Shown here: positions 15,399 through 38,883 of the stretch, in pieces
Layout of the letters: each line of letters begins with the position of its first letter
How positions within the stretch are numbered: position 1 is the stretch's first letter
Source: Nocardioides carbamazepini
Lineage (GTDB): Bacteria; Actinomycetota; Actinomycetes; Propionibacteriales; Nocardioidaceae
Assembly: GCF_024614185.1 (NCBI RefSeq)
Contig: NZ_JAHTLF010000013.1
Span: 186,001 to 250,000 of the forward strand
Length of the DNA: 64,000 bases
Direction: 5' to 3'
Position numbers and translations under genes: made by a program
Notes under the pieces: model-generated
Databases searched by the model: none
The model's input: the letters and a program-made list of their open reading frames with translations, nothing else
Told to the model about the DNA's origin: nothing

Positions 15399-15399
15399 G

Positions 15400-16644
15400 A
15401 TGCCCACGCTGATCCGGATGCCCGCGGTCGCAGCGGGAGCCACCGAGGTGGTCCTCGCCGAGTGGCCCGTCGGCGAGACGGACTCCTTCGTCGCCCACCA
15501 GACCTATGCCGTGATCGAGACCGACAAGGCCGTCGTCGACCTCGAGGCCGAGGCCGACGGCGTGCTGGTCCGCGCCCTGGTCCCCGCCGGCGCCAAGGTC
15601 GAGGTGGGCGACCCGATCGCTCTGGTCGCCGCACCCGGTGAGCAGATCGACGACGTGGCCGCGGCCCTCGCCGCGCTGGGCGTCACCGTGGCGGTCGAGC
15701 ACGAGCTCCCGGTCCGGCGGGAGGTGACCGAGGTTGCCGCGCCCCCGTCCGCCCCGCGGATCGCGGCCGACGGCCGCCGGGTCTTCGCCAGCCCGCTCGC
15801 CCGCCGCCTGGCCCGCGACGCCGGTCTCCGCGCGAGCGATCTGGTCGGCACCGGCCCCGGCGGACGCGTGGTCCGCCGCGACATCGAGCTGGCCATCGCC
15901 GCCCGCCACTCCGCCCCCGAGTCGAGCGCTCCCGCTCCTGGTCCGGCCACTGCCCAGGAGCACGGCGGGATCACCGAGGTCCCGCACACTCGCGTGCGCC
16001 GCGCCGTCGCGAGCAGGTTGACGCGGAGCAAGCAGGAGAGACCGCACTTCTACGTCTCCGGCAGCGCGCGGGTGGACCGGCTCCTCGCCCTCCGGGCGGA
16101 GGTCGAGGCGGCCACCGGCATCAAGGTGTCCCTCAACGACCTCGTGGTGCGCGCCGTCGGTCGTGCCCACGAGCTGGTTCCCGAGCTGAACGTGACCTGG
16201 ACCGACGACGCCGTGATCCAGCACCGGCGCGTCGACGTCGGCATCGCGGTCGCCACCGAGCGCGGGCTGATGACCCCCGTCGTGACCGACGTGACCGGCC
16301 GCTCCCTGCTCGACCTGTCGGCTGCGACCCGGGACCTCGCGACCCGCGCCGGGGACGGCGGCCTCCGCCAGCACGAGCTCGAGGGTGGGACCGTCGCCGT
16401 CTCCAATCTGGGCATGTTCGGCGTCGAGGAGTTCAGCGCGATCATCAACCCACCGCACGCCTCGATCCTCGCCGTCGGCGCGGCCCGTCAGGAACCGGTC
16501 GTCGCCGACGGAGCGCTCGAGGTCGGCACCGTGATGCGGTTCGTCCTCTCCGTCGACCACCGCCCCGTCGACGGCGTGGCCGCGGGCCGGTGGATGCAAG
16601 CCTTCCTCCGACTGGTGGAGCACCCCGCAGGGATGCTCGCATGA
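15400..16644 (+). CDS. Dihydrolipoamide acyltransferase E2
   Basis: A 414-residue E2 core subunit. One lipoyl domain carries Lys43 in ETDKAVVDLEA. The peripheral subunit-binding domain at about 128-165 reads FASPLARRLARDAGL and GTGPGGRVVRRDI. The catalytic domain ends with DHRPVDG, His387 and Asp391 being the acyltransferase residues. The ATG at 15400 has GGAGAAGG upstream, one base after the E1 stop. It forms the core of the complex with the fused E1; E3 must come from elsewhere in the genome. Confidence 0.93.
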   Translation: MPTLIRMPAVAAGATEVVLAEWPVGETDSFVAHQTYAVIETDKAVVDLEAEADGVLVRALVPAGAKVEVGDPIALVAAPGEQIDDVAAALAALGVTVAVEHELPVRREVTEVAAPPSAPRIAADGRRVFASPLARRLARDAGLRASDLVGTGPGGRVVRRDIELAIAARHSAPESSAPAPGPATAQEHGGITEVPHTRVRRAVASRLTRSKQERPHFYVSGSARVDRLLALRAEVEAATGIKVSLNDLVVRAVGRAHELVPELNVTWTDDAVIQHRRVDVGIAVATERGLMTPVVTDVTGRSLLDLSAATRDLATRAGDGGLRQHELEGGTVAVSNLGMFGVEEFSAIINPPHASILAVGAARQEPVVADGALEVGTVMRFVLSVDHRPVDGVAAGRWMQAFLRLVEHPAGMLA

Positions 16645-17219
16645 TCGGCGCCGACGGCGGCCGCGAGGACACGGCCCGGCGGGGTCTGCCCGGCCTGCGA
16701 CGCCTCGATCACGTCGGCTTCACGGTCCCCGACTTCGCCGAGGCCCGGCGCTTCCTCGAGGAGGTGCTCGGCTGCGAGTACCTCTACGCCAACGGCCCCT
16801 TCCAGGATGACGATGGCACCTGGATGGCCGACCACCTCGACGTGCACCCGCGCGCCACGTGCGTCCTGCACTTCTTCCGACTCGGCGGCCAGGCGGTGCT
16901 GGAGGTCTTCGAGTACGACGCCCCCGACCAGCGCCGGTCGAGCCCCGCCAACAGCGACGTCGGCGGACACCACCTGGCGCTCTACGTCGACGACATCGAC
17001 CTCGCGATCGCCCATCTCCGCTCGCACGACATCCGTGTGCTCGGCGAGCCCACGACCAGCGGCGGGCCGAGCACGGGCCAGCGGTTCGTCTACTTCCTCA
17101 GTCCCTGGGGCATGCAGTTCGAGTTGGTGTCCTACCCCGAGGGCAAGCAGTTCTTCCTCGACGAGGCGCGGGCGAAGGCCGAGTGGGCCGAGGCCGAGCA
17201 GGCGCTCGACCAGGGTTGA
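16641..17219 (+). CDS. VOC-family (glyoxalase/dioxygenase-fold) protein
   Basis: A 192-residue vicinal-oxygen-chelate protein. RLDHVGFTVPDFAEARRFLE opens the first beta-alpha-beta module, with His in LDHVGF as a likely metal ligand. GGHHLALYVDDIDLAI and PWGMQFELVSYPEGK are in the second, giving further His and Glu ligands. Possible activities include isomerase, epimerase, lyase or dioxygenase. The start ATG overlaps the E2 stop (ATGA), so it belongs to the dehydrogenase operon and may process the substrate or a side product of that complex. Confidence 0.85.
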   Translation: MIGADGGREDTARRGLPGLRRLDHVGFTVPDFAEARRFLEEVLGCEYLYANGPFQDDDGTWMADHLDVHPRATCVLHFFRLGGQAVLEVFEYDAPDQRRSSPANSDVGGHHLALYVDDIDLAIAHLRSHDIRVLGEPTTSGGPSTGQRFVYFLSPWGMQFELVSYPEGKQFFLDEARAKAEWAEAEQALDQG

Positions 17220-17229: not shown

Positions 17230-17832
17230 TCACTCGATGTCGAGCGCCTTGCAGCAGATGTCGGTCGCTACCCGCAGCAGCTGGTCCTCGCCGCCGGCCC
17301 AGACGCCCTGGACAAGGGCGTGGAAGAACATCTGGTCGAGCATGACCACGAGCATCTGCACGCGGATCTTCATGTCGGCGCGGTCATCGGCCGGGACCGT
17401 CCGGAGGAACTCGGCGATCTCGTCGGAGAGCCGGTCGTAGCGCGGCTGGAACTCCTTGGCGAACTCCGGGTCGCTGGCCATCGCCTCGTGCTTGGACGGC
17501 ATCAGGCTCGCGTTGTCGCGCGCCCAGTGGGTGAGCCGGAGGATCCAGCGGGCCATCGCGTCCCGGGTGCCGCTCATCAGCGCGGTGTTGAGCTCGCGCC
17601 AGTACTCGTCCGTGTGCATCCGGTCGAGTGCCACGACCTCGCGGAACACCGCCGCCTTGTCGGGGAAGTGGAGATAGAACGTCGCCCGGTTGATCGCGGC
17701 CTCGGTGGTGATCAGGCCGATGGACGCACCCGCGTAGCCCTGCTGCTCGAACACCACGCGCGCGGCGTCGATGATGCGCGAGCGCGTCAGCGCCTTCTGC
17801 GCCTCCCTGAGGGACCCGGTGCCTGTCGTCAC
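17230..17832 (-). CDS. TetR-family transcriptional regulator
   Basis: A 200-residue TetR regulator. The helix-turn-helix lies at about 10-60 (ALTRSRIIDAARVVFEQQGY and the recognition segment INRATFYLHFPDKAAVF). The C-terminal ligand domain is variable. The start is taken at GTG 17832; it has no good ribosome binding site, so a longer N-terminus is possible. It is the last gene of the leftward carboxylase operon and is a natural candidate for the repressor that binds the inverted repeats in front of the two CoA operons. Confidence 0.88.
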   Translation of the reverse strand: MTTGTGSLREAQKALTRSRIIDAARVVFEQQGYAGASIGLITTEAAINRATFYLHFPDKAAVFREVVALDRMHTDEYWRELNTALMSGTRDAMARWILRLTHWARDNASLMPSKHEAMASDPEFAKEFQPRYDRLSDEIAEFLRTVPADDRADMKIRVQMLVVMLDQMFFHALVQGVWAGGEDQLLRVATDICCKALDIE

Positions 17833-17865
17833 ATGCGAACTGTAGGCGGAGCGTCGTTCACTCGA

Positions 17866-17875
17866 CAACTTGTTG
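17866..17875. promoter_or_regulatory. Small palindrome upstream of the TetR gene
   Basis: CAAC-TT-GTTG at 17866-17875 lies in the short gap between the SDR stop and the TetR start. It could be an autoregulatory site of the TetR protein, but its half-site spacing differs from the other palindromes in this window. Confidence 0.25.
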
Positions 17876-17913
17876 CCTCTTTCGACAGGCAGCGATGGCT
17901 TGGTGGCGGTCGG

Positions 17914-18717
17914 TCAGCCCTGCGGCTTGAAGTCGCGACCCGCCTTGGACGAGTGCGAGCCGCCGTCGACGAACAGCGACGTTCCCGTCGTGTACGCCGA
18001 CAGCGGGCTGGCCAGGTAGACGATGGCGTCCGCGACGTCCTTCGGCACGCCCAGCCGGCCCAGCGGCACCGATGTGCCGGGCTCGTCGGCCAGGTGTGTG
18101 TCGACCTGCGTCATGGCGGTCTCGACGACGCCGGGATGCACGGCGTTGACCCTGATCCCGTGCGGGCCGAGCGAGGCGGCGAGCGAGTAGGTGAGCATCC
18201 GGACGGCGCCCTTGGAGATGTTGTAGGTCGGCATCGAGGCGGAGCCGAGCACGCCGCCGACCGACGAGATCGTGACGATCACGCCCTCGCGACCGCCGGC
18301 CACCATCGACCGGGCGGCGGCCTGGCACGCGAAGAAGGTGCCCTTGACGTTCACGTCCAGCATCGCGTCGTAGTCGGACTCGGTGACGGCGAGGACGTCC
18401 TCCATCCGCAAGATGCCGGCCGCCGGGACCATGATCGACACACCGCCCATCACCTCGGCGGCCGCGACCGCGGAGCGCAGCGAGGCGACCGAGGTGACAT
18501 CGCACTGGGCGAAGATCGCCGGGACGCCCAGCTCGGTCAGCACCTCGGCCGTCGGCACGCCACCCTCGCGGGGCTCGCGCCGCAGGTCGGCGACGACGAC
18601 GCCGTCCACACCGGCCTCGGCCAGCCGCAGCGCGGTCGCCCGGCCGAGGCCGGACGACCCGCCCGTCACGACCGCGACCTGCCCGGAGAGCAGGTCGGAG
18701 GGCCAGCCGGTGCTCAT
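17914..18717 (-). CDS. Short-chain dehydrogenase/reductase
   Basis: A 267-residue classical SDR. TGGSSGLG (18-25) binds the cofactor, an acidic residue in VVADLR points to NAD(H), the catalytic serine is in ISSVGG and the YxxxK pair is YNISK. FVDGGS closes the substrate pocket region. It would oxidise or reduce a hydroxy or keto group of the pathway intermediate. The ATG overlaps the stop of the acyl-CoA dehydrogenase (ATGA), tying it to that operon. Confidence 0.92.
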   Translation of the reverse strand: MSTGWPSDLLSGQVAVVTGGSSGLGRATALRLAEAGVDGVVVADLRREPREGGVPTAEVLTELGVPAIFAQCDVTSVASLRSAVAAAEVMGGVSIMVPAAGILRMEDVLAVTESDYDAMLDVNVKGTFFACQAAARSMVAGGREGVIVTISSVGGVLGSASMPTYNISKGAVRMLTYSLAASLGPHGIRVNAVHPGVVETAMTQVDTHLADEPGTSVPLGRLGVPKDVADAIVYLASPLSAYTTGTSLFVDGGSHSSKAGRDFKPQG

Positions 18718-19859
18718 CCGACTCCCTTGAGGATCTGTGAGCCGATCAGGTTGCGCAGGGCCTCGGTGGTGCCTCCGCCGAGGGTGAACATGCGCGCGTC
18801 GCGGTAGAGCCGCTCCACCCGGATGTTGCGGGAGTAGCCGAGCGCGCCGTGCAGCTGGAGCGCGGTGGAGCTCACCGTGATGGCGTTCTCCGCGGCGTGC
18901 AGCTTGGCGAGCGCGGCGAGCTCCGGGTCGGGCAGGCCCGACTCCGAGAGCGAGGCCGACGCGGCAGCGCGGTGGATCAGCAGGCGCGAGGCGTCGAGCG
19001 CGAGACGCATGTCGACCAGGCGCCAGCGCAGGCCCTGGAAGTCGGAGATCGGGTGGCCGAACTGCTGACGCTGCGTCGTGTAGCGGAGCGCGTCCTCGTA
19101 GGCCGCCTGGGCCAGGCCGAGGGCGACCGTGGCCGCGCCGACGCGCTGGTTGTTGTAGCGGCCCATGATGTCCTTGAGGCCGAACATCAAGACGTGGGAG
19201 CGCGGGACCGTCAGGTCGTTGAAGTGGACGTCCATCTCAGGGATGCCGCGCAGGCCCATCATGTAGTTGCGCTTGCCGAGGTCGAAGCCCTCGTCGTCGC
19301 GCTCGCAGTAGACCGCGCAGAGGCCCTTGTCCTCACCGTCCTCGATGAGCTTGGCGACGACCACGTTGACGATGGAGTCCTGGGCGCCGGTGATCCAGGT
19401 CTTGGTGCCGTTGAGCACGACCGTGTCGCCGCGGACCTCGGCAGTCGTGGTCATCGCGTTGACGTCGGTGCCGCCGGCCGGCTCGGTGATCTGGATGACC
19501 GGCTTGTCACCGGCCAGCACGAGCTCGGCGACGTGCCTCTTCAGCTCTTCCGAGCCCGCCTTCATGATGATGCTGAGCGCACCGAGGTTCCCGTCGACGA
19601 CGATGCGGCCCGAGACGCCGCAGCCCTTGGCGATCTCCTCGACCACCAGGACCACGTCGTAGAGCGACAGGCCGGCGCCGCCGTACTGCTTCGGGATGGT
19701 CATGCCCATGAAGCCGGCGGCAGCGAGCTCCTTGGCGTTCTGCATCGGGTACTGCTCGGTGCGGTCGACCTCGGTGGCGCGCTCCGCGAACACCCCGGAG
19801 AGCTCGCGGGCGCGGGCCTGGAGGTCGAGCTGCCCGGCGGTGGGAGTGGGGACGGTCAT
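18714..19859 (-). CDS. Acyl-CoA dehydrogenase-family protein with atypical catalytic site
   Basis: A 381-residue FAD flavoprotein of the acyl-CoA dehydrogenase fold. FAD/substrate signatures are ITEPAGGTDVNAM and GLRGIPEMDVHF; RQQFGHPISDFQGL precedes the C-terminal helices. Where medium-chain enzymes have YEGT with the catalytic glutamate, this protein has GGGT (TLGGGTTEALRN). At the alternative position used by isovaleryl-CoA dehydrogenase it has Gln (YNNQRV). Either a different residue is the base or it works as part of a heteromer. It overlaps both neighbours by four bases in the carboxylase operon. Confidence 0.9.
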   Translation of the reverse strand: MTVPTPTAGQLDLQARARELSGVFAERATEVDRTEQYPMQNAKELAAAGFMGMTIPKQYGGAGLSLYDVVLVVEEIAKGCGVSGRIVVDGNLGALSIIMKAGSEELKRHVAELVLAGDKPVIQITEPAGGTDVNAMTTTAEVRGDTVVLNGTKTWITGAQDSIVNVVVAKLIEDGEDKGLCAVYCERDDEGFDLGKRNYMMGLRGIPEMDVHFNDLTVPRSHVLMFGLKDIMGRYNNQRVGAATVALGLAQAAYEDALRYTTQRQQFGHPISDFQGLRWRLVDMRLALDASRLLIHRAAASASLSESGLPDPELAALAKLHAAENAITVSSTALQLHGALGYSRNIRVERLYRDARMFTLGGGTTEALRNLIGSQILKGVG

Positions 19860-21250
19860 CGCGGTTCTCCTACGAGGTCAGTGGTTTCGAGCCAGGTGGT
19901 GGTGTGCCGTGAGGCGGCGAAGTCGGGGTGGGCCAGGACGCCGAGGTGCAGCGGCGCGGTGGTGATCGGGCCGTCGATCCGCAGCTCCTCGAGCGCCCGC
20001 GTCATCCGGGCGATCGCGACCTCGCGGGTCGGGCCCCACGCGATGAGCTTGGCGATCATCGAGTCGTAGTAGGGCGAGATCCGGTAGCCGGCGGTGCAGT
20101 GTGTGTCGACGCGTACGCCGATGCCGCCCGGCAGGTCGAGCTCGTCGATCCGGCCGGGGCGCGGCAGGAAGGTGCGCGGGTCCTCGGCGTTGATCCGGCA
20201 CTCGATCGCGTGCGCGGCGGGCAGCTGCGAGGCGGGCTCGACGAGCGGCACCTCGCCGGTGGCGGCGAACCACAGCTGGGCGGCCACCAGGTCGACACCG
20301 TGGACGACCTCGGTGACCGGGTGCTCGACCTGGATGCGGGTGTTCATCTCGATGAAGAAGAACTCGCGCGAGTCCATGTCGTAGAGGAACTCGACCGTGC
20401 CGGCGCCGGAGTAGTCGATGCCGGACGTCAGCGCGCGGGCCGCCTCGGTGAGCGCGGTGCGCGTCTCGGGAGAGAGCACCGGCGACGGCGACTCCTCGAT
20501 GAGCTTCTGATGGCGGCGTTGGACCGAGCAGTCGCGCTCCCCGAGCACCACCACTCCCCCGGCGCCGTCGCCGAAGACCTGGACCTCGACATGGCGGGCG
20601 GCCTGCACATAGCGCTCGACGTACATCTCGCCCGACCCGAAGACCGCGAGGGCCTCGGCGCTCGCCTCGGTGTACTGGTCGACGAAGTCCTCCTCGCGCA
20701 GCACCGGGCGGATGCCCTTCCCGCCGCCGCCGGCCGCAGCCTTGAGCAGCACCGGGAACCCGACGGCCGCGGCGGCCGCGAGCGCCTGCTCGGCCGTCGC
20801 GTCGCTCAGCGTGGCACCGGGGACGACCGGGACCGCGAGCTTCTCGGCGGCCTCACGGGCGGCGATCTTGTCGCCCATCGTGTCGATGGCCTCGGCGCTC
20901 GGCCCGACGAACGTCAGCCCGGCCTCGGCGATCGCGCGGGCGAACTCGGCGTTCTCGGCGAGGAAGCCGTATCCGGGGTGGATCGCGTCGCAGCCGGCCG
21001 CCTCCGCGACCGTCACGATGGTCTCGATGGAGCGGTAGCTCCTGGTGACGTCGGCGGGCCCGATGCACACCGAGCGGTCGGCGAGGCGCACCGCGAGCCC
21101 GTCGCGGTCGACGTTGCTGTGGACGACGACCGTCTCGAAGCCGAGCTCGCGGCAGGCGCGCACGATGCGCACCGCGATCTCACCACGGTTGGCTACCAGC
21201 ACGCGGTAGCGACCGCCCGCACGGCCGACGGGAACGGGTGACGTGCTCAC
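19856..21250 (-). CDS. Biotin carboxylase (AccC-type)
   Basis: A 464-residue stand-alone biotin carboxylase; there is no fused biotin carrier domain. The N-terminus is YRVLVANRGEIAVRIVRACR. The ATP-grasp glycine loop is AAAGGGGKGIRPV, and ERDCSVQRRHQKLIEE and EMNTRIQVEHPVTE carry metal and bicarbonate residues. It carboxylates biotin on the carrier protein encoded at the head of the same operon. The start overlaps the thiolase stop and its stop overlaps the next gene, both by ATGA. A housekeeping acetyl/propionyl-CoA carboxylase role is unlikely because no AccD-type carboxyltransferase is here. Confidence 0.94.
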   Translation of the reverse strand: MSTSPVPVGRAGGRYRVLVANRGEIAVRIVRACRELGFETVVVHSNVDRDGLAVRLADRSVCIGPADVTRSYRSIETIVTVAEAAGCDAIHPGYGFLAENAEFARAIAEAGLTFVGPSAEAIDTMGDKIAAREAAEKLAVPVVPGATLSDATAEQALAAAAAVGFPVLLKAAAGGGGKGIRPVLREEDFVDQYTEASAEALAVFGSGEMYVERYVQAARHVEVQVFGDGAGGVVVLGERDCSVQRRHQKLIEESPSPVLSPETRTALTEAARALTSGIDYSGAGTVEFLYDMDSREFFFIEMNTRIQVEHPVTEVVHGVDLVAAQLWFAATGEVPLVEPASQLPAAHAIECRINAEDPRTFLPRPGRIDELDLPGGIGVRVDTHCTAGYRISPYYDSMIAKLIAWGPTREVAIARMTRALEELRIDGPITTAPLHLGVLAHPDFAASRHTTTWLETTDLVGEPR

Positions 21251-22386
21251 GAGCGGGCCAGCACGTGGACGGCCGCGGCGCCGTTGTCGACGCCCCAGAT
21301 CCCGCCACCGGTGCAGTGCGCGACGCCGACCTTGGCGCCGTCGACCTGGTTGGCACCGGTCTCGCCGCGCAGCTGGGCGACGAGCTCGACGACCTGGACC
21401 ACGCCGGTCGCGCCGAGCGGGTGGCCGCGCGAGAGGAGACCGCCCCCGGTGTTGACCGCCGTCCTGCCGGCCAGCGCGGACTGGCCGGAGAGCACGAAGC
21501 TCGCGCCCTCGCCGCGCTCGCAGAGGCCGAGGGCCTCGTAGTACATGACCTCGCCGATCGCGGCGGCGTCATGCACCTCGGCCACGTCGACGTCCTTGGC
21601 CGTGATGCCGGCCGAGGCGTAGGCCTGCTCGACCGCGCGGAGGGTGATGTCGGGCCAGGCCATGTCACGCCGGCCCTGGAAGAACTGGCCGCTGAGCACC
21701 ACCGAGGAGAGCACCTCGGCCGAGCGGGCGTCTCCGGCCGCGGCCGGGTCGCTGGTCACCACGACCGCGGCCGCACCGTCGGCGTTGGGACACATCTGGA
21801 GCAGCGTGATCGGGTCGGCGACCAGCCGCGACTCCATCACCTCGTCGATGGTGACCGGCGTGCGGTACTGCGCGTTGGGGTTGCGCGAGGCAGCGTCGCG
21901 GCTCTTCACCGAGACCTGCGCGATGTCCTCCGGCTTGCCACCGAAGCGGGAGAGCCACGACTCCGTGCGCATGGCGTACGCCGCCGGCATGGTGAGGCCG
22001 GCCTTGATCTCCGGGTCTCCGGGGCCGATCGGCAGCAGCCCGCCGCCGAGGGCGCTGAGCTGCTCGACGCCGATCACCAAGACGGTGGTGAACTCGCCGT
22101 TCCTCACCGAGCGGTAGGCCTGGGCGAGGGCGCTCGCGCCGCTGGCGCAGGCGTTCTCGAAGTTGTAGCAGGGCAGGCCGTCGAGGCCCATCTCCTTGCC
22201 GATGCGCTGCCCGACGAGCGAGCCGGCGTAGGCATTGCCGCAGAACAGCGCCTCGACGTCGGTGCGCTGGAGCCCGGCGTCGCGGACGGCGGCGATGCCC
22301 GCCTCGACGGCCAGCGACTCGAGGGTGCGGTCACGGAACTTGCCGAACGGCGTGGTGGCGGCACCCACGATGCGGGGGTTGGTCAT
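21247..22386 (-). CDS. Thiolase-family acyltransferase with intact catalytic residues
   Basis: A 379-residue thiolase of the SCP2/thiolase-like group. The nucleophile is Cys80 in ENACASG, the histidine is in RGHPLGATG and the second cysteine in AHCTGGG, so real thiolytic or condensing activity is plausible. The ATG at 22386 is preceded two bases earlier by the stop of a DUF35 protein gene; such OB-fold proteins form complexes with SCP2-type thiolases. It overlaps the biotin carboxylase gene by four bases. It would cleave a 3-ketoacyl-CoA made by this operon. Confidence 0.9.
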   Translation of the reverse strand: MTNPRIVGAATTPFGKFRDRTLESLAVEAGIAAVRDAGLQRTDVEALFCGNAYAGSLVGQRIGKEMGLDGLPCYNFENACASGASALAQAYRSVRNGEFTTVLVIGVEQLSALGGGLLPIGPGDPEIKAGLTMPAAYAMRTESWLSRFGGKPEDIAQVSVKSRDAASRNPNAQYRTPVTIDEVMESRLVADPITLLQMCPNADGAAAVVVTSDPAAAGDARSAEVLSSVVLSGQFFQGRRDMAWPDITLRAVEQAYASAGITAKDVDVAEVHDAAAIGEVMYYEALGLCERGEGASFVLSGQSALAGRTAVNTGGGLLSRGHPLGATGVVQVVELVAQLRGETGANQVDGAKVGVAHCTGGGIWGVDNGAAAVHVLARS

Positions 22387-22388
22387 CC

Positions 22389-22763
22389 TCAGGCCTCCTG
22401 CCCGGTGGGCGCGGACGCGTGGTCCACGGTGAAGAAGTGGTCGCCGGTCTCGGCGTCGGCGTGGGTGGTCACGGTCATGCCGGGCGCGAGCGGCCGGTCC
22501 TCGGCCCAGTTCACGACGCGCCCCAGGACCCGGACGTCGCCGTCGAAGTCGGCGTAGCACAGGGCGTAGGGCACCTCGAAGAGGTTGCCCATCCGCACGA
22601 CGGTCCAGGTGGCGACGGTGCCGGTCGGCGCGAGGTCGTGGGCCGGCAGGTCGCTCGCCCAGCAGGTCGGGCACAGGTCGCGCCCGGGGTAGAAGCCGCG
22701 GTCGCAGGCGACGCAGTGCGTCCCGGTGAGGGCGACCGGGGCCGCGGTCTCGGTGCTGGTCAT
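22389..22763 (-). CDS. DUF35 zinc-ribbon/OB-fold protein
   Basis: A 124-residue acyl-CoA-associated DUF35 protein. The zinc ribbon is CVACDRGFYPGRDLCPTCW, two CxxC pairs, followed by an OB-fold with TVATWTVVRMG and YALCYADFDGDVRVLGRVV. Proteins of this type bind acyl-CoA and partner thiolases or hydratases. The ATG at 22763 has GGAGG six bases upstream; longer readings cover the neighbouring gene in the wrong frame. It directly precedes its presumed thiolase partner. Confidence 0.88.
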   Translation of the reverse strand: MTSTETAAPVALTGTHCVACDRGFYPGRDLCPTCWASDLPAHDLAPTGTVATWTVVRMGNLFEVPYALCYADFDGDVRVLGRVVNWAEDRPLAPGMTVTTHADAETGDHFFTVDHASAPTGQEA

Positions 22764-22777
22764 GGTGGTCCTCCAGG

Positions 22778-23989
22778 TCAGGCGGTCGCGGCGGGAACCG
22801 CGCCGGTGGCGCGGGCGATGTGCTCGGAGTCGAGGCCGAGGGCGCCGAGGACGGCGTCGTTGTCCTGACCCAGGCGGGGCACCGTCCCGGCGGGGATCGG
22901 GCCCATGTCGCTCATCGTGAAGGGGGCGTGCGGCATCTTGATCTCGCCGACGTCGGGGTCCTGCACGCGGACGAACATGCCGCGCGCCTCGAGATGGGGG
23001 CACGCGGAGATGTCGGCGGAGTCCTGCACGATGCCGGCCGGCACGCCCCCCTTCTCGAACTCGGCGACGACCTCGGCACGGGTGCGCTCCTTCATCCAGG
23101 CGAGCATCGCCGGGAGGTAGGCGTCGGGGTTGGCGGCGCGGGCGGCGCCGGTGGCGGTGCTCGGGTCGTCGGCAAGCTCGGCGCGGCCGATGATCGCAGC
23201 GACGCGGCGCCACATCAGGTCGTTGGGTACGACGAGGGAGATGAAGCCGTCGGAGCACTCGTAGGCACCCATCGGCGCCTGGAAGCGATCCGGTCCGCGG
23301 GTGATCACGTCGCCGGTGAAGGCGTGCTGCATCAGCGGGCGCTCGTTGAGCGCGACCATGGTGTCGTACATCGACACGTCGATCAGGCGGCCCTGACCGG
23401 TGCGGCTGCGGTCGAAGAGCGACATCAGGATCTGGTAGCCGGTGAGGATCGCCGTGGTCATGTCGGCGAGGCCGTACATCGGCAGCTCGGGCGGCAGGTC
23501 GGCGCTGCTGCCGGTCACGTGGGTGATGCCGGCCATGCCGAGGATCGCGGCGTCGAACGCCGGGCGGCCGGCGTACGGTCCCGCACTGCGGCCGTAGCCG
23601 GACACGGCGGCGTAGATGAGGCCGGCGTGGTCCTTGCTGAGGTCGGCGTAGCCGATGCCCAGCTTGTCGGTGGCGCCGGGACGGAGGTTCTCCACGACGA
23701 CATCGGCGGTGGCGACGAGCGCCCGGTAGGCCTGGCGGCCCTCCTCGCTCGCGAGGTCGAGCGTGACCGACATCTTGTTGCGGTTGAAGGAGAAGAAGCC
23801 GCCGGAGACCGACGCGCCGTCCTCGCCCTCGAGCCGCGGCATGAAGACGCGACGCGGGTCGCCGCCGTCGGGGCGCTCGACCTTGATCACCTCGGCGCCG
23901 GCGTCGGCCAGCCACATCGTGCAATAGGGGCCGGAGATGTACTGCTCGAGCGCGACCACGCGGACGCCTTCGAGGGGCAGTCTGGACAC
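22778..23989 (-). CDS. Class III CoA-transferase (CaiB/BaiF family)
   Basis: A 403-residue family III CoA-transferase. It starts LEGVRVVALEQYISGPYCTM, then DAGAEVIKVERPDGGDPRR for CoA binding; the catalytic aspartate segment is IDVSMYD. It would move CoA between a donor acyl-CoA and a carboxylic acid, which fits activating the acid product of a carboxylation or recycling CoA. The GTG start has GGAG seven bases upstream. The gap to the carboxyltransferase gene is 24 bases and to the DUF35 gene 14. Confidence 0.93.
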   Translation of the reverse strand: MSRLPLEGVRVVALEQYISGPYCTMWLADAGAEVIKVERPDGGDPRRVFMPRLEGEDGASVSGGFFSFNRNKMSVTLDLASEEGRQAYRALVATADVVVENLRPGATDKLGIGYADLSKDHAGLIYAAVSGYGRSAGPYAGRPAFDAAILGMAGITHVTGSSADLPPELPMYGLADMTTAILTGYQILMSLFDRSRTGQGRLIDVSMYDTMVALNERPLMQHAFTGDVITRGPDRFQAPMGAYECSDGFISLVVPNDLMWRRVAAIIGRAELADDPSTATGAARAANPDAYLPAMLAWMKERTRAEVVAEFEKGGVPAGIVQDSADISACPHLEARGMFVRVQDPDVGEIKMPHAPFTMSDMGPIPAGTVPRLGQDNDAVLGALGLDSEHIARATGAVPAATA

Positions 23990-24013
23990 GGTGGGTCTCC
24001 TTCTCGGAGTGGG

Positions 24014-25492
24014 TCAGTGGGTGGGTCGGCGGCCGACGTCGATACGGACGTCGAGCCGGGAGATGTCGTCGCGGCCAGCGAGGTGGCCGACCAGGGCGCC
24101 GAGCGGGCTGAGCTCGCGCACGGGCAGCTCGTCGACGGGCCGCTGCCTCATGGCCTCGACCTGCGCGGGCTGGCAGAACAGGGCGAAGAAGACGTCGTCG
24201 TCGGTCGCGTCCGCCGGCAGGTCGGCCCGGATCCCGGGCAGCATCGGCTCGGCGTAGGCGGCCATCGGGTCGACGGCGGGCGCGTCGCCGAGGATCCTGT
24301 CGAGAACATCGGGGTCGATCGGGCCGGGCGGCTCGCCGTAGTGACCGGCCGCGTAGGTGCGCAGGTCGGCCGGCACGGTGTGGAACCGCTTGCCGTCGAG
24401 GACGTTGAGCATCGCCTGAACCCCGACGAGCTGGCTGAACGGCGTCACCATGCCGGGGCAGCCGAGGTCGACGCGCACCCGGGCCGCCTCCTCGAGCACC
24501 TCGGGGAGGCGGTCGATGAGGCCGAGTGCCTCGAGCTGGCCGACGTAGTGGGACATCATCCCGCCGGGGATCTGGTGGCCGACGTAGGAGCGGTAGTTGT
24601 CCTCGTCGTACTCCACGTGGGGGGCGAGGTCCTTGCCGTAGTCGTAGGCCACGTAGCTGAAGTAGGAGTCCATCCAGGCGACCTCGTCCTCGTCGAGGTC
24701 GACGCGGACGCCCTCCTCCTTCGCCAGCGCCACGAGATCGGCGGTGGCCGGGACGGAGTTGCTGCCGGCGACGGAGCGGGCGGCGCTGGACAGCGCCGTG
24801 ACGCCGTTGCGCAGCGCCTCGCGGTAGCACTCGAGCGCGAGGCCGGTCTGGTCGTGGACGTTCATCTCGATCGGCAGGCCGGGAGCCGCGCCGCGGATCG
24901 CGGCGACCAGCGGGGCGATCCGCTCGGGCCGCAGCACGCCGCAGGCGTCGTAGAGCAGGATCCCCGAGGCGCCGTACGCCGCGTACTCCTTGGCCTTGCT
25001 GGCGAAGTACTCGTCGGTGTGGACCGGCGACTCGGAGAAGGTCAGGCAGGCGGAGGTGTGCATGCCGAGTCGACGACCCTCACGGATGTGGTGCTCGACA
25101 TTGCGGGTGTCGTTGAGCGCGTCGAAGACCTCGAACTCGTCGAGACCGAGGCCGGCGAGGTACTCGAGGAAGAAAGTCACGACATCGTCGCTGTAGCGGG
25201 TCCAGCCGAAGAGGTTGCGGCTGCGGACCAGGATCGTGCTCGGCGTGTCCCCCATCAGCTCGCGCAGCAGGCGGAACCTGTCGAGCGGGTTCTCCTCGAG
25301 GAAGGAGACCGCGACCTCGAAGCCGACGCCGCTGAGCAGGTTGCTGCGGGCGAAGCCGGCGTTGGCGGCATGCGGCGCTGCCGGCAGCATGTGCCGGGTC
25401 CGGAGCCGGTTCGCCCACAGGGACTGCGGGCCGTCGCGGAAGGTCTCGTCGGCGACCTGGAGGGTGAGCTGCTCGCTCGTCGTGTCCGACAC
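24014..25492 (-). CDS. Transcarboxylase-5S/pyruvate carboxylase-like carboxyltransferase, divergent
   Basis: A 492-residue HMGL-like TIM-barrel carboxyltransferase like transcarboxylase 5S and the CT domain of pyruvate carboxylase, which move CO2 between carboxybiotin and a keto acid. DETFRDGPQSLWANR (15-29) and HQIPGGMMS, GCPGMVTPFSQLVG are well conserved. Two of four metal ligands differ: the carbamylated lysine of KDMAG is Tyr181 (YDACG), and the first histidine of HTHxTSG is Asn211 (NVHDQTG); Asp15 and His213 remain. There is no fused biotin domain. It lies two bases after the biotin carrier gene, so it should use that carrier. The acceptor is unknown. Confidence 0.85.
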   Translation of the reverse strand: MSDTTSEQLTLQVADETFRDGPQSLWANRLRTRHMLPAAPHAANAGFARSNLLSGVGFEVAVSFLEENPLDRFRLLRELMGDTPSTILVRSRNLFGWTRYSDDVVTFFLEYLAGLGLDEFEVFDALNDTRNVEHHIREGRRLGMHTSACLTFSESPVHTDEYFASKAKEYAAYGASGILLYDACGVLRPERIAPLVAAIRGAAPGLPIEMNVHDQTGLALECYREALRNGVTALSSAARSVAGSNSVPATADLVALAKEEGVRVDLDEDEVAWMDSYFSYVAYDYGKDLAPHVEYDEDNYRSYVGHQIPGGMMSHYVGQLEALGLIDRLPEVLEEAARVRVDLGCPGMVTPFSQLVGVQAMLNVLDGKRFHTVPADLRTYAAGHYGEPPGPIDPDVLDRILGDAPAVDPMAAYAEPMLPGIRADLPADATDDDVFFALFCQPAQVEAMRQRPVDELPVRELSPLGALVGHLAGRDDISRLDVRIDVGRRPTH

Positions 25493-25494
25493 GC

Positions 25495-26016
25495 TCAGGC
25501 CTCGATCCGGACCAGCACCTGCTCGAACTCGACGAGCTCGGCGTTGTCCACGCAGACCTCCACGACCGTGCCGGCGACACCCGCCCGGACCGTGTTCATC
25601 AGCTTCATCACCTCGACGATGCCGATGACGTCGTCGGCGCCGACCTGCTGGCCGACCTCGACGAACGGCGGGGCGTCCGGGCTGGGCGCGCGGTAGAAGA
25701 CGCCGGCGATCGGGGCCGCGACCGGCTCGCCGCGGCCCTCGGTGGCAGGCGCCGGAGTCGCGGCCGGTGCCGCGACGGCGTCCTGGGGTGCCGGAGTCGG
25801 GGCGACGGCCACAGCGGGGGCGACGGGAGGAGCTGCGACGACGACCGGGGCGGAGCTGGTGCCGCGCTCGACCTCGAGACGCAGGGGGCCGTCCTTGTAG
25901 ACGATCCGGGTCGGGAGGTCCGAGCCGTCGAGCATCGTCAGCAGCTCGACCACGGTGTCGAAGGTGAGCCCCTCGGAGGAGCCGCTGGAGGTGGTCTTGC
26001 CGGGGGCCTTGGCCAT
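25495..26016 (-). CDS. Biotin carboxyl carrier protein
   Basis: A 173-residue AccB-type carrier. The biotin attachment motif is EVMKLMN with Lys138, 35 residues from the C-terminus as usual. An N-terminal region (DTVVELLTMLDGSDLPTRIV) resembles AccB, and a proline/alanine linker of about 50 residues joins the two. The ATG at 26016 has GAAGGA seven bases upstream. It is the first gene of the nine-gene leftward operon and shuttles carboxybiotin between the biotin carboxylase and the 5S-like carboxyltransferase encoded behind it. Confidence 0.94.
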   Translation of the reverse strand: MAKAPGKTTSSGSSEGLTFDTVVELLTMLDGSDLPTRIVYKDGPLRLEVERGTSSAPVVVAAPPVAPAVAVAPTPAPQDAVAAPAATPAPATEGRGEPVAAPIAGVFYRAPSPDAPPFVEVGQQVGADDVIGIVEVMKLMNTVRAGVAGTVVEVCVDNAELVEFEQVLVRIEA

Positions 26017-26074
26017 CGTCTTGTCCTTCGTCTCAGCACTGCCGGACCGACCGGTCAGTGACATCTGTCACGCT

Positions 26075-26119
26075 AAGAGACAACATAGTGTCGTGTCAAG
26101 AGACACTATGTCGTCTCTT
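26075..26119. promoter_or_regulatory. Long near-perfect inverted repeat, operator of the carboxylase operon
   Basis: AAGAGACAACATAGTGTC (26075-26092) and GACACTATGTCGTCTCTT (26102-26119) are 18-base arms with one mismatch around a 9-base spacer. The site lies 59-103 bases before the biotin carrier gene and is far more AT-rich than the surroundings. AAGAGACA also recurs as a direct repeat. The size and symmetry suit a dimeric TetR-type repressor, perhaps two dimers. Confidence 0.75.
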
Positions 26120-26183: not shown

Positions 26184-26978
26184 CTACTTCAGGTCGTACG
26201 TGTGGAACTGCCGGGCCAGCCGGTAGTGCCCGATGTCCTCGCTGGGCCGGTCGGGGTCGTCGCCGTACGCGCCGTCGGCGTAGTGCACCATCAGGGTCTT
26301 GCGCTGGAAGTCCTCCGGCATCGACAGCAGGTCCTCGACCGGCGAGTGCAGGTTGCGGATGTCGGCGCCGAGGGCATCGGTCGGACCGAACCAGGCGTCG
26401 TGCATGACCAGGTCGCAGTCGTCGAACCACGCCCACTTCTGCTTGTCGACGCCGGCGTCCGGCGCGTAGCCGAACTTCGTGCCGCCGAAGTCGAACTTGT
26501 ACTGCAGGCAGCGCGGGTGGTGGCGGGTCTCGGTGAACTCCACGGTGAAGCCGCCGAGATCCATGCCGTTCTCGATCGGCTGGGCGTCGAAGAACCAGTC
26601 GAAGTTGGCCAGGCCGCCGTCACCGCGAGCGGACTCCTCCAGCGAGGGCCGCAGGCTCGACCAGATGTCGCTCAGCAGCCACTGCGGGGCGTAGAGCTTG
26701 ATCGGGTTCTCCGTGACGTAGTACTGGAGGTAGGCCAGCTCCTCGAGCCCGTTCACGTGGTCGGCGTGCATGTGGGTGATGAAGATCTCCCGGTACTGCG
26801 TGTGCTCCACCTGCCGGGTGCCCTCGCGGTTGTTGGTCGCCAGCATCTTGGGCAGGTAGGGCGGACAGTCCAAGAAGACCTCGCGGCCGTCGATGTCCAT
26901 CAGGACGTGGGTGTTGAAGTGCCGGGTGGTGAAGGCGTCACCCACCCCGAGTGTGTAGAGGCTCACCTTGTCAGCCAT
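26184..26978 (-). CDS. Metallo-beta-lactamase-fold hydrolase
   Basis: A 264-residue MBL-fold protein of the RNase Z-like branch. The metal motif is HMHADH (69-74), with further ligands in TRHHPRC, a late Asp in YAPDAG and His in MHDAWFG. It could be a thioesterase, lactonase or phosphodiesterase. Position at the end of the leftward thiolase/DUF35/MaoC gene set suggests hydrolysis of a CoA ester or lactone in the pathway, but this is inference. The next gene upstream lies 33 bases away. Confidence 0.88.
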   Translation of the reverse strand: MADKVSLYTLGVGDAFTTRHFNTHVLMDIDGREVFLDCPPYLPKMLATNNREGTRQVEHTQYREIFITHMHADHVNGLEELAYLQYYVTENPIKLYAPQWLLSDIWSSLRPSLEESARGDGGLANFDWFFDAQPIENGMDLGGFTVEFTETRHHPRCLQYKFDFGGTKFGYAPDAGVDKQKWAWFDDCDLVMHDAWFGPTDALGADIRNLHSPVEDLLSMPEDFQRKTLMVHYADGAYGDDPDRPSEDIGHYRLARQFHTYDLK

Positions 26979-27011
26979 GTCCGGCTCCTGTCGTTGGGCG
27001 GGTTGCGGTGC

Positions 27012-27527
27012 TCACTCGGGCGGCACCAGATCCGTGACTGTCGATTCCACCGCATCGTGTCCGTCGCGGACCGGCAGCCCGGGCCGAACGCCGGCGACCC
27101 TGAAGAACGGCAGCACCCACTCCCCGACCTGCACAGGTACGACATCGCAGCGGTCGCCGACGCGGGGCCGGCGCCCCTCCGGGAGTACGTCGGTGAGCAG
27201 GTGGGTCAGCAGCGTGGCACCCTCCTCGAGCCGCACCAGGCCGACGTAGTAGGGCGTGACCGCGCCCCACGAGGCCTGGCCGGGACGATGCACCTCGGAG
27301 TGGGTCACCAGCTCGGCGCGTCCGGTCGCCTCGACGAACGACAGCTCGGCCGACCAACAGCGCACGCAGCGGGTGCGTGGATAGCCCTGAGCCGTGCCGC
27401 ACGCGCCGCACGTCTGGACGGTGAGCCGCCCCGCGCGCAGCGCGTCCCACCAGGGCCGGGACTCGGCCGTCGGCGTCGGCGGCGCGACGGAGAGGTCGGC
27501 GTAGGCCCGTTCGCCCCGCAGACTCAT
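27012..27527 (-). CDS. DUF35 OB-fold protein, partner of the Ltp2-like aldolase
   Basis: A 171-residue DUF35 protein. The zinc ribbon CGACGTAQGYPRTRCVRCW lies near residue 40, followed by an OB-fold (TGRAELVTHSEVHR, TPYYVGLVRLEEG). The start ATG overlaps the stop of the thiolase-like gene (ATGA), so the two proteins are probably made in equal amounts. In steroid side-chain degradation, the DUF35 domain of ChsH2 binds the thiolase-like aldolase Ltp2; this pair matches that arrangement. Confidence 0.88.
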   Translation of the reverse strand: MSLRGERAYADLSVAPPTPTAESRPWWDALRAGRLTVQTCGACGTAQGYPRTRCVRCWSAELSFVEATGRAELVTHSEVHRPGQASWGAVTPYYVGLVRLEEGATLLTHLLTDVLPEGRRPRVGDRCDVVPVQVGEWVLPFFRVAGVRPGLPVRDGHDAVESTVTDLVPPE

Positions 27528-28681
27528 GAGGTCCCTCCCAGCACGAGCGCGGCGGCCTCGCTGAGGGTCGCGCCGTTGCCGGTGACCATGCTCAGCCGGG
27601 GGTCCGGGATCTGCCGCTCCCCCGCCTCGCCGCGAAGCTGGCGAACCGCCTCGACGACATGGGACATCGGGCCGGCGAGGCCACACTGACTGAAGCCGAG
27701 CTGGCCACCGTGGGTGTTCATCGGGAAGTCGCCGGTCGGCGAGAAGTCGTGGTCGGCGAGCCAGGGCCCGAACTTGCCGGGCGCGACGACGCCGAGGTCC
27801 TCGATGGTGATGCCGACGACGATCGTGTAGCAGTCGTAGAGCTGGTAGTTGCCGAGGTCGGCGAGCCCGACCTCGGCCTGCGCCATGGCATGGGCCATGG
27901 CGTCCTTGAGCGGGCCGGTCGTGATCGCGGGCGCGCCGGAGAGAGCGCGGTGGGTCACCTTCTCCCCCGCGCCCAGCAGGTGGGCGCCGGCGCGGCCGAG
28001 GCCGCGCGCCCGCTCGGGCGAGACGACCACCAGGGCGCTGGCGCCGGCGGCCTCCATGACGGCCTCCAGCATGTGGATCGGCGCGCTGATCATCGGCGAG
28101 GCCAGCACGTCCTCGACGGTGATCGGCCTGCCGTGGAAGATCGCCGCCGGGTTGAGCTGCGCGTTGGCGCGGGACCGGACGGCGATCTCGGCGAGCTCCT
28201 CCGCCGTCGTGCCGTAGGTGTCCATGTGGGCCTGGGCGATCATGGCGTACGTCGTGTTGGCGCCGCTGGCACCGAAAGGGACGTCGTACTCGCGGATCGG
28301 CGCGCGATAGCTCGACCTCGGGAAGCCGGTCGCCGGTCGCGCGGCGCCACCCACGCAGAGCACCACCTCGCACATCCCGGCCCGGATGGCCGCCGCTGCC
28401 CGCCAGACCATGCCGGCGGCGCTGGCGCCGCCGAGGTCGACGACATTGGCCGCCGTCGGGCGCAGGCCGAGGTACTCCGCGACGGATGCGGGCACGTGCA
28501 TCGGGATCTCGCCGTACTGCTGGCCGACGAGGAGACCATCGACGTCCTCGGGTCCGAGCCCCGCGTCGGCCACCGCCAGGGCGGCGGCCTCGGCCATCAG
28601 GCCGAGGGAGCTCTCACCGGTGGTGGACCGTCGCGGGGTCAGCTCGCCGATGCCGACGATCGTGGCAAGGGGTGCTCTCAC
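27524..28681 (-). CDS. Thiolase-fold protein lacking thiolase cysteines, Ltp2-like aldolase candidate
   Basis: A 385-residue SCP2-thiolase-fold protein. The nucleophile loop reads DLGGASAAG, with Gly85 where thiolases have the reactive cysteine, and the C-terminal cysteine motif is TGNGAT. His324 (NTHGGQLG) is kept. LYDCYT (281-286) offers tyrosines like those used by the retro-aldolase Ltp2. It is therefore unlikely to be a thiolase and more likely cleaves a beta-hydroxyacyl-CoA by retro-aldol chemistry, or plays a structural role. It is followed by its DUF35 partner and preceded by a MaoC hydratase. Confidence 0.85.
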   Translation of the reverse strand: MRAPLATIVGIGELTPRRSTTGESSLGLMAEAAALAVADAGLGPEDVDGLLVGQQYGEIPMHVPASVAEYLGLRPTAANVVDLGGASAAGMVWRAAAAIRAGMCEVVLCVGGAARPATGFPRSSYRAPIREYDVPFGASGANTTYAMIAQAHMDTYGTTAEELAEIAVRSRANAQLNPAAIFHGRPITVEDVLASPMISAPIHMLEAVMEAAGASALVVVSPERARGLGRAGAHLLGAGEKVTHRALSGAPAITTGPLKDAMAHAMAQAEVGLADLGNYQLYDCYTIVVGITIEDLGVVAPGKFGPWLADHDFSPTGDFPMNTHGGQLGFSQCGLAGPMSHVVEAVRQLRGEAGERQIPDPRLSMVTGNGATLSEAAALVLGGTS

Positions 28682-28688
28682 GGGGGGC

Positions 28689-29192
28689 TCAGCCCTCGCT
28701 CGTCTCGGCCTCCGCAGCCGCGAGCAGCGACTTGCGGGGCGACATGTAGGTCAGCACCTCGCCCTCGAGCACGACCTGGCCGTCGGAGCGGGTCACGGTC
28801 TGCTTGAGCTTGGCGATCGGCTTGTCGTGGCGCACCTCGAGCACCTCGACTCGGGAGACGACCTCGTCGGGGATGTAGACCGGAGCGACGAAGCGCCAGC
28901 TGACCGAGAGGAACACGCTGCCCGGGCCGGGGATGTCCTGGGCGCCGACCTCGCTGATGGCGCCGATGATCAGGCCGCCGTGGGAGATCCGACCCTCGAA
29001 CATCGTCGAGTCCTCGATGAAGGCGTCGTCGAAGTGGAGCGGGTTGTAGTCGCCGCTGGCCTTCGCGAACGCGTCGACATCGTCCTGGGTGATGGTCCGG
29101 GTGCGCTCCGCGCTCTCGCCGACCACCAGCGGGCGGCCGAGGAAGGTGGTGTTCCAGACGGAGTTGTTCTCGTCGTAGGTGACGTCGGGCAT
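28689..29192 (-). CDS. MaoC-family enoyl-CoA hydratase
   Basis: A 167-residue hot-dog hydratase. The hydratase-2 motif runs from DDVDAFAKASGDYNPLHFDD to GRISHGGL and includes the catalytic Asp and His. It would add water to an enoyl-CoA. The ATG at 29192 has GAGGAG ten bases upstream. It lies seven bases ahead of the thiolase-like gene, so hydration would feed the aldolase-like step directly, as in the ChsH1-ChsH2-Ltp2 system. Confidence 0.9.
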   Translation of the reverse strand: MPDVTYDENNSVWNTTFLGRPLVVGESAERTRTITQDDVDAFAKASGDYNPLHFDDAFIEDSTMFEGRISHGGLIIGAISEVGAQDIPGPGSVFLSVSWRFVAPVYIPDEVVSRVEVLEVRHDKPIAKLKQTVTRSDGQVVLEGEVLTYMSPRKSLLAAAEAETSEG

Positions 29193-29234
29193 GGTGGCGC
29201 TTCTCCTCAATAGGGACTACGTGGGGAACTGCAG

Positions 29235-31229: not shown

Positions 31230-31292
31230 AGCAGGAGGCTCCTGGTTCGGCAGAGGGTCGGGCAGAGGGGCGAGAGGGTGCCGGCGTGGGGC

Positions 31293-32546: not shown

Positions 32547-32585
32547 GACCCCTCCTCGCTGACGTGACGGGTGTCACGCATCTCG

Positions 32586-32622
32586 GTCAACATAGTGACG
32601 ACTCAATCGTCGATGTGTCAAC
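32586..32622. promoter_or_regulatory. Imperfect inverted repeat before the thiolase gene, related to the 26075 site
   Basis: GTCAACATAGTGACGA (32586-32601) faces TCGTCGATGTGTCAAC (32607-32622), with 11 of 16 positions symmetric. Its CAACATAGTG (32588-32597) is identical to 26081-26090. Each site lies 40-105 bases ahead of the first gene of a leftward CoA-chemistry unit, so one regulator may act on both. Confidence 0.6.
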
Positions 32623-32646
32623 GCTTACTTCGGGACCGCCCGTCCC

Positions 32647-33414: not shown

Positions 33415-33462
33415 GTCAGGACTCCGGTTCAGGGGTTGATGGCAGAGATCTGGAGGCGGGGC

Positions 33463-33996: not shown

Positions 33997-34106
33997 CTGG
34001 ATCCTCGTTCTCCTTCTCGGACACCCGCGCCGGAGTGCGGGCCGGATGACCCATCTCACATTCAGCGGGGGTGATCCGATTTTCGAATGACACCTTGACG
34101 AATTGG

Positions 34107-34121
34107 ACAACAGCCTGTTGT
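34107..34121. promoter_or_regulatory. Palindrome CAACA-N3-TGTTG before the TPP-enzyme gene
   Basis: ACAACA-GCC-TGTTGT is a perfect 15-bp inverted repeat seven bases after a TTGACG -35-like box (34095-34100), in the region shared with the divergent cupin gene. The same core recurs at 35834-35846. A repressor bound here would cover the promoter spacer. Confidence 0.6.
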
Positions 34122-34174
34122 GTGTGCCGGGCATCACTTCTATCACAGGTGCACCTACCGCCGGAAGGACCTCG

Positions 34175-35782: not shown

Positions 35783-35812
35783 CGCGCGCCGCAAACCCCT
35801 CCCGCCGATCCA

Positions 35813-35847: not shown

Positions 35848-35897
35848 CCGAACCGGGATGTGACCGCGCTCACACCCCTCGATGAAACGGAGTCCTG

Positions 35898-37576: not shown

Positions 37577-37601
37577 AGACAGGACATAGGACATCCCACC
37601 A

Positions 37602-38870: not shown

Positions 38871-38883
38871 GTCCCGACCGGCC

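Follow-up and report, generated by a model that had tools for sequence, protein, structure and literature searches.

Biotin-dependent carboxylation of ketones is known from two published pathways. In the p-ethylphenol pathway of Aromatoleum aromaticum EbN1, an alcohol dehydrogenase is followed by HacABC (4-hydroxyacetophenone carboxylase), the acetoacetyl-coenzyme A (CoA)-ligase-like AcsA1, and the predicted thiolase TioL1 (PMC10715001). In the Hpe/Acv pathway (HpeHI, HpeCBA, HpeD, HpeE, and HpeF) of Rhodococcus rhodochrous GD02 and Sphingobium SYK-6, HpeCBA carboxylates 4-phospho-acetovanillone and not acetovanillone (PMC9618137); the kinase HpeHI is the subject of PMC12167813. By our own reading of the two pathway papers, HacABC and XccBCA (PMC9618137) are the same enzyme, and the authors of PMC9618137 suggested that the substrate of XccBCA is perhaps phosphorylated too. 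As PMC13101465 reports from another paper, only 52 of 836 cases showed clustering of kinase and carboxylase genes, and kinase-free clusters have hence already been noticed by others. Here, we analyzed a 64,000-nucleotide stretch of the Nocardioides carbamazepini genome (contig NZ_JAHTLF010000013.1, positions 186,001 to 250,000; in the following termed the window, with positions counted from its first letter), which carries a nine-gene operon that includes a divergent carboxyltransferase (CT). On balance, we read the operon as encoding a three-part biotin-dependent ketone carboxylase together with the enzymes that would use its product.

All nine genes are encoded on the minus strand (17230-26064), with gaps of -4 to 45 bases between neighbors. 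In the 5' to 3' direction, Pfam identified a biotin carboxyl carrier protein (BCCP), the CT, a class III CoA-transferase, a DUF35 protein, a thiolase, a biotin carboxylase, an acyl-CoA dehydrogenase, a short-chain dehydrogenase (SDR), and a TetR regulator, and the successive gaps are 2, 24, 14, 2, -4, -4, -4, and 45 bases. The nine families, their common direction and order, and the tiny gaps or 4-base overlaps named by the initial annotation were thus confirmed. Its extent of 17230-26119 holds at the lower end, whereas the upper end lies 55 bases beyond 26064, where the earliest possible start codon for the carrier is located. Codon-position G+C content selected the frames of eight of the nine genes, with a strong signal in the CT frame; the DUF35 frame is supported by Pfam and was masked in this test by an over-extended thiolase frame. 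The G+C content of the window is 68-75% per 4-kb block, in keeping with actinobacterial DNA.

The CT matched the Pfam families PYC_OADA (97.4 bits, cut-off 27) and HMGL-like (31.4 bits, cut-off 29) and remained below the NCBIfam cut-offs for oadA (323.3 versus 756.5), 5S (246.8 versus 827), and pyruvate carboxylase subunit B (356.5 versus 402). Its AlphaFold2 model (pLDDT 91.4, pTM 0.90) was aligned by Foldseek with the CT folds of pyruvate carboxylase (5ks8), oxaloacetate decarboxylase (OAD; 2nx9), and transcarboxylase 5S (1rqh), with E values of 1e-34 to 2e-32. By profile and predicted fold, the protein is therefore a member of the pyruvate carboxylase subunit B/OAD alpha/5S group, as had been proposed together with a dedicated carrier and biotin carboxylase. 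The active site is altered. The metal ligands of 5S and pyruvate carboxylase CTs are Asp, His, and His; of this set, the window CT retains Asp20 and His213 (His207 of OAD), and the first His (His205 of OAD) is replaced by Asn211. In the canonical RDAHQ motif, Pro22 takes the place of the His. In the same alignment to 2nx9, Tyr181 takes the position of K178 of the Vibrio OAD, which is the residue proposed to receive the carboxyl group beside a zinc ion (PMC2881705). Canonical enzymes have a carbamylated lysine at this position. What the initial annotation argued for 5S-type enzymes, carboxylation of keto acids or decarboxylation, can therefore not simply be transferred to this CT, which is without the lysine and one metal ligand thought to be basic to that chemistry.

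An eight-row alignment was scanned against genome contigs, and the best 80 of 582 confirmed stretches were kept. In a 66-row tree, the window CT fell into a 12-member clade (SH-aLRT 100; window, L055-L064, and L039), whose members come from Ideonella, Caenimonas, other Burkholderiales or Betaproteobacteria, Desulfobacteraceae, Deltaproteobacteria, an actinobacterium, Lutimaribacter, and Sulfitobacter. The clade spans several phyla, and several members are metagenome assemblies. As the branch of the window CT is long (1.32), its position inside the clade is unsure. The site survey covered 104 further CT rows, five reference rows among them and one gene counted twice (overlap of L065 and L071): 83 had lysine-His-His, one had lysine-Val-His, and 20 were without the lysine. 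The lysine was thus retained in 84 of 104 surveyed rows versus none of the 12 clade members. The AHQ His, like the lysine, is lost across the clade, and the first metal His is absent in eight members (window, L055-L059, L061, and L063). All 12 CTs share Glu16, Glu59, Arg92, and Trp97, which are rare in the 83 canonical-site rows, and a four-residue insert (302-305) that occurs in none of these rows. As new residues and an insert are fixed in all 12 members, the comparison argues for a site that was rebuilt rather than decayed.

The presence and absence of the lysine require at least two changes on the 66-row tree. A second lysine-less group carries Glu, Tyr, or Gly at this site and holds L048 from the same genome as well as L041 from a Rhodococcus pyridinivorans plasmid cluster, in which phosphoenolpyruvate-utilizing enzymes adjoin the CT. 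Three CTs (L043, L052, and L053) show Y-H-N, in which Tyr replaces the lysine and Asn replaces the second His, and have SCP2 thiolase and ligase matches nearby; they represent a separate loss of the canonical site. One contig (G115:C305) carries two different 5S-like CTs about 14 kb apart (L049 and L050). For the window CT, there was no match above 34% identity at E <=1e-30 in 36 genomes of the genus, and matches at E <=1e-70 were found in six of 394 genomes of the class, the own genome counted, with 39% identity for the best other. A single-protein scan, which is sensitive to close relatives only, found no viral relatives.

The neighboring genes of the clade members were surveyed with clade-derived queries, because queries from the window alone miss FadA-type thiolases and ligases in L056, L058, L061, and L063; the neighbors in L058 and L063 were judged by tblastn. 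A thiolase lies within 2 kb of the CT in seven of the 12 clade loci (window, L056, L057, L058, L059, L061, and L063), and the matches in L058, L059, and L063 are independent of the loci that donated the queries. Six of these seven also have a CoA-activating gene: the window, L057, and L059 encode a class III CoA-transferase, and L058, L061, and L063 encode an AMP-forming ligase; no such gene was found within the stretch examined of L056. Biotin carboxylase is present in eight of the 11 other clade loci. In a control with 82 other CT loci, a thiolase was found within 6 kb at 150 bits in five, each also with a CoA-activating gene. CT, CoA activation, and thiolysis genes recur together in other phyla. 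L104, a canonical-site locus, also carries a thiolase and a CoA-transferase, and the pathway logic is therefore independent of the loss of the lysine.

The Desulfobacteraceae locus L057 holds the same six-gene core as the window in a different order, with identities of 48% (CoA-transferase), 25% over 84 residues (DUF35), 38% (SCP2 thiolase), 44% (CT), 32% (BCCP), and 49% (biotin carboxylase). After this core come BadF, an acyl-CoA dehydrogenase gene, and a pair of HGD-D genes. For one sulfate reducer growing on acetone, formylation has been reported, and others induce further genes (PMC7888143), so that more than one substrate is conceivable for this cluster. In a 14-row tree, the CoA-transferase of the operon clustered with its homologues of L057 and L059 (48% identity); among 95 related genomes besides the own, a match at E <=1e-70 was found in one (38% identity).

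Five clade loci form one branch (L055, L060, L062, L064, and L039), all with an M29-like gene and without a thiolase match to the clade queries. BCCP and CT occur in this branch along with biotin carboxylase in four of the five loci, and TRAP transporter genes follow in L039. The M29-like genes of L055 and L060 share 37% identity; a Pfam scan of three of these genes gave M29 with 26.5 bits (cut-off 27) in one and no match in two. This branch possibly serves a different pathway.

From the co-located genes and by analogy with the two published pathways, we infer the reactions, the substrate class, and the order of the steps in the operon as follows. The SDR or another enzyme would generate an enolizable ketone, and the biotin carboxylase would charge the carrier with CO2 from bicarbonate at the expense of ATP. 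With the charged carrier, the divergent 5S-type CT would then carboxylate the unphosphorylated ketone at its alpha carbon, which would yield a beta-keto acid. With a donor such as succinyl-CoA, the class III CoA-transferase could convert this acid to a beta-ketoacyl-CoA, which the DUF35/SCP2-thiolase pair would cleave with CoA; the acyl-CoA dehydrogenase would begin beta-oxidation of the freed acyl-CoA, and TetR would act as regulator. In support, the genes for CT, carrier, and biotin carboxylase occur together, and the window also has an acetoacetate-CoA ligase and a cupin related to 2,4'-dihydroxyacetophenone dioxygenase. That CoA-transferase and ligase interchange among the clade loci points to a free acid as the product of the carboxylase. 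Our best guess for the substrate is an aryl or alkyl ketone. An unphosphorylated ketone appears likeliest, as the genome has a single, partial PPDK_N match: a search confined to PF01326 as kinase family found no complete domain and one match of 58 positions (30 bits) on another contig. The initial annotation had likewise suggested a carboxylation joined to CoA transfer and thiolysis as an uncommon route, for instance for a ketone or keto acid; the ketone idea and the gene linkage stand, but such a route is not without precedent (HacABC, PMC10715001; HpeCBA, PMC9618137). More tentatively, the clade may represent a novel type of biotin CT that works without the carbamyl-lysine and the canonical metal site, in which the rebuilt pocket (Glu16, Glu59, Arg92, Trp97, and the insert) might enolize an unactivated, unphosphorylated ketone and thereby feed a kinase-free ketone carboxylation pathway common to N. 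carbamazepini, Burkholderiales, and relatives of sulfate reducers.

Several points weigh against the ketone carboxylase reading. The HpeCBA precedent acts on a phosphorylated ketone and not on acetovanillone, so that a kinase-free route departs from it (PMC9618137), and kinases of families other than PF01326 would escape the search. An acyl-CoA dehydrogenase is superfluous for an aryl methyl ketone, and among the 11 other clade loci, only L057 has a match to it, which is 24-25% identical and more than 4 kb from the CT. Without residues thought to be essential, the window CT may have another chemistry or be inactive. The Fisher values for the neighbor contrast (8.5e-7 and 4.1e-4) are only indicative because of self-hits (L056, L057, and L061), thresholds that favor the clade, and the shared ancestry of the loci. 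Many control loci are shorter than the full flank, which tilts the contrast towards the clade; 42 of the 82 reach 4 kb on both sides, and thiolase and CoA activation genes occur together in four of those. A broader query set with a threshold of 100 bits detected a thiolase in the locus for 10 of the 82, and this control and the unsettled branching slightly reduce the contrast. A single branch of the seven thiolase-bearing members is unsupported, the tree having an open fork there. The 48% identity of the CoA-transferases was dropped as proof of a shared pathway, as it is weakened by CoA-transferases with 45-47% identity on two plasmids, which have no match to a carboxylase gene of the operon within 10 kb.

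A rather unlikely alternative is that the CT acts on an acyl-CoA or a CoA-bound intermediate. The CoA-transferase would then act first, the acyl-CoA dehydrogenase would desaturate, the CT would carboxylate, and DUF35/thiolase would cleave. Such a route would resemble the bbs beta-oxidation set, which consists of a class III CoA-transferase, an acyl-CoA dehydrogenase, an SDR, and DUF35/thiolase. These families are all present in the operon, whose thiolase is closest to benzoylsuccinyl-CoA thiolase. The BadF and HGD-D genes of L057 are of the benzoyl-CoA-reductase/2-hydroxyacyl-CoA-dehydratase type, and a rebuilt CT site may have a new substrate. However, the 29 aligned solved sequences and the 50 listed fold matches are named pyruvate carboxylase, oxaloacetate decarboxylase, or transcarboxylase 5S, with no acyl-CoA-specific CT among them. 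Moreover, L058, L061, and L063 have an AMP-ligase beside the CT and a FadA-type thiolase but no acyl-CoA dehydrogenase match, which fits better with a free beta-keto acid.

It was also considered that the CT is degenerate and inactive, in which case carrier and biotin carboxylase would work with an orphan AccD or with the second 5S-like protein of the genome (L048, G000:C11). The missing lysine, the missing AHQ His, and the exchange of one His ligand, together with the branch length, could be taken in this sense. We nevertheless regard it as improbable, as the loss of lysine and AHQ His typifies a 12-member multi-phylum clade with its own invariant residues and insert, the clade members retain constant neighbors, the CT reading frame has a strong codon-position signal, and the paralogue L048 has its own biotin carboxylase. 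With regard to the carrier, the genome contains seven biotin carboxylase C-domains, seven AccD-type (PF01039) matches, and three PYC_OADA matches. Four of the seven AccD matches pair with a biotin carboxylase no more than 5 kb away, in one case inside a single 1932-aa frame, and the remaining three biotin carboxylases accompany the three PYC_OADA proteins. From this genome-wide pairing, the window carrier would most simply serve the adjoining CT. An AccD partner elsewhere, which the initial annotation had held to be contrary to its proposal, is accordingly unlikely, yet three AccD-type genes are without a biotin carboxylase domain within 5 kb. All seven AccD-type subunits lie outside the window; the initial annotation was right that none is here, and an AccD-type acyl-CoA carboxylase was rejected for the operon. 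A plain pyruvate carboxylase was rejected as well, as a separate 1173-aa frame has the pyruvate carboxylase-type domains, and the window CT falls below the oadA, 5S, and subunit B cut-offs. L048 (G000:C11:299000-318000) has Glu for the lysine and is 35% identical to the window CT. Its neighbors are a biotin carboxylase, an AMP-ligase, an SCP2-type thiolase, MaoC, a luciferase-like monooxygenase, a cyclase-family protein, and two SDRs, and it is probably another catabolic carboxylation cluster.

A CT working in reverse, by keto acid decarboxylation or carboxyl transfer as in OAD or transcarboxylase with the biotin carboxylase only setting the balance, is very improbable: the closest characterized folds do include decarboxylase and transcarboxylase subunits, but the biotin carboxylase in the operon and in most other clade loci points to ATP-driven carboxylation, and the Pfam-scanned genes at 17230-40415 include no decarboxylase membrane beta subunit.

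The features of the operon and the genes upstream of it are listed below.

Table. Operon genes and upstream genes on the same strand of the window, with the matches on which their names are based.
Feature	Position	Strand	Evidence or remark
Biotin carboxyl carrier protein (BCCP)	25495-26064	-	Biotin_lipoyl 58 bits; NCBIfam BCCP TIGR00531 132.6 (cut-off 115.2)
Carboxyltransferase (CT), OadA/5S type, altered active site	24014-25492	-	PYC_OADA 97.4 bits; alignment to 2nx9, 1rqb, 5ks8; model and fold match
Class III CoA-transferase	22778-23989	-	CoA_transf_3 366.7 bits
DUF35/ChsH2-type zinc-ribbon and OB-fold thiolase partner	22389-22763	-	OB_ChsH2_C 41 bits; zf-ChsH2 25.5 bits
SCP2-type thiolase	21247-22386	-	Thiolase_C_1 133.6 bits; closest solved relative benzoylsuccinyl-CoA thiolase subunit (7pxp), 246.5 bits
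Biotin carboxylase	19856-21250	-	Three biotin carboxylase domains; NCBIfam PRK08591 610.3 (cut-off 597)
Acyl-CoA dehydrogenase	18714-19859	-	Acyl-CoA_dh_1, _N, _M
Short-chain dehydrogenase (SDR)	17914-18717	-	adh_short_C2 183 bits
TetR-family regulator	17230-17868	-	TetR_N 51 bits
Metallo-beta-lactamase (MBL)-fold hydrolase	26184-26978	-	Lactamase_B_2; 119 bases upstream of the BCCP gene
Second DUF35 protein	27012-27527	-	4-base overlap with the adjacent thiolase gene
Second SCP2-type thiolase	27524-28681	-	Pair with the second DUF35 protein
MaoC dehydratase	Within 28689-34146	-	
Acetoacetate-CoA ligase	29235-31229	-	TIGR01217 676 bits (cut-off 520.9)
FadA-type thiolase	31293-32546	-	
Upstream SDR	32647-33414	-	
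Cupin	33463-34146	-	Closest solved relative 2,4'-dihydroxyacetophenone dioxygenase, E 3.5e-29

The carrier has an MKL motif from residue 153 on, and the DUF35 protein has four Cys at positions 17, 20, 31, and 34. For the acyl-CoA dehydrogenase, the closest NCBIfam model is 3-sulfinopropanoyl-CoA desulfinase (469 bits), which is below the cut-off of 600. Like the altered CT active site, the continuation of the same-strand run upstream of the operon to 34146 goes beyond the initial annotation; whether the genes at 26184-34146 are members of the operon is uncertain. On the other side (13173-17219), the genes run convergently with the operon and encode a fused E1, in which a single 741-aa protein comprises alpha and beta, as well as a VOC-like protein and an E2-like lipoyl protein that were both named by sequence and not by search. 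Divergent from the cupin gene, the region 34103-40415 holds a thiamine pyrophosphate-dependent enzyme, a GlcD-like FAD oxidase, and an ABC transporter whose binding protein is NMT1-like.

In the mechanism proposed for OAD, the carboxyl group passes via K178 (PMC2881705). A clade that is conserved across several phyla and lacks this lysine makes the mechanism directly testable. The operon may represent a biotin-dependent route that converts ketones to beta-keto acids without a kinase, and catabolic carboxylases labelled 'pyruvate carboxylase subunit B' or 'hypothetical protein' comprise several active-site types. Among the papers listed in the literature searches, which mostly lacked subscription papers, we found nothing on a lysine-less or metal-less CT of the OadA/5S class, nor on such a CT with a class III CoA-transferase.

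The operon resembles the Hac system, with its biotin-type ketone carboxylase, the alcohol dehydrogenase before it, and CoA activation and a predicted thiolase after it (PMC10715001, PMC9618137). At the family level, the corresponding set is present as SDR, BCCP/CT/biotin carboxylase, CoA-transferase (plus the upstream acetoacetate-CoA ligase), and thiolase. It would differ from Hac by the class III CoA-transferase, the SCP2/DUF35 thiolase, the extra acyl-CoA dehydrogenase, and a CT of the lysine-less clade. As in Hpe/Acv, biotin carboxylase, OadA-type CT, and carrier are separate subunits, and Hpe acts on the ketone side chain, with subsequent CoA activation and removal of acetyl-CoA (PMC9618137). 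Unlike Hpe/Acv, however, the genome has no complete PPDK_N domain as in the HpeHI dikinase, PF01326 being the family searched, and there is no phosphatase among the operon genes. In the CT comparison, an Hpe-like cluster of a Rhizobium plasmid (L042) stood in for the HpeB, HacC, and AcvE sequences; its CT retains the lysine and both metal His, and its AHQ His is Asn. With OAD alpha, transcarboxylase 5S, and the CT domain of pyruvate carboxylase, the window CT shares family and fold but not K178 and His205, which are Tyr181 and Asn211, whereas His207 is kept as His213. The SCP2-type thiolase with its DUF35 partner gene is reminiscent of the benzoylsuccinyl-CoA thiolase BbsAB, in which BbsA is a DUF35 protein; here, in contrast, the thiolase, with 246 bits to one BbsAB subunit, is joined to a biotin carboxylase. 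As the defining features of OAD, 5S, and Hpe were each looked for and not found, we regard the operon as a variant of the ketone-carboxylase kind and not as a member of one of these groups. For HacABC (PMC10715001) and HpeCBA (PMC9618137), a succession of biotin-dependent ketone carboxylation, CoA activation, and acetyl-CoA removal has already been published, and what is new here is the CT.

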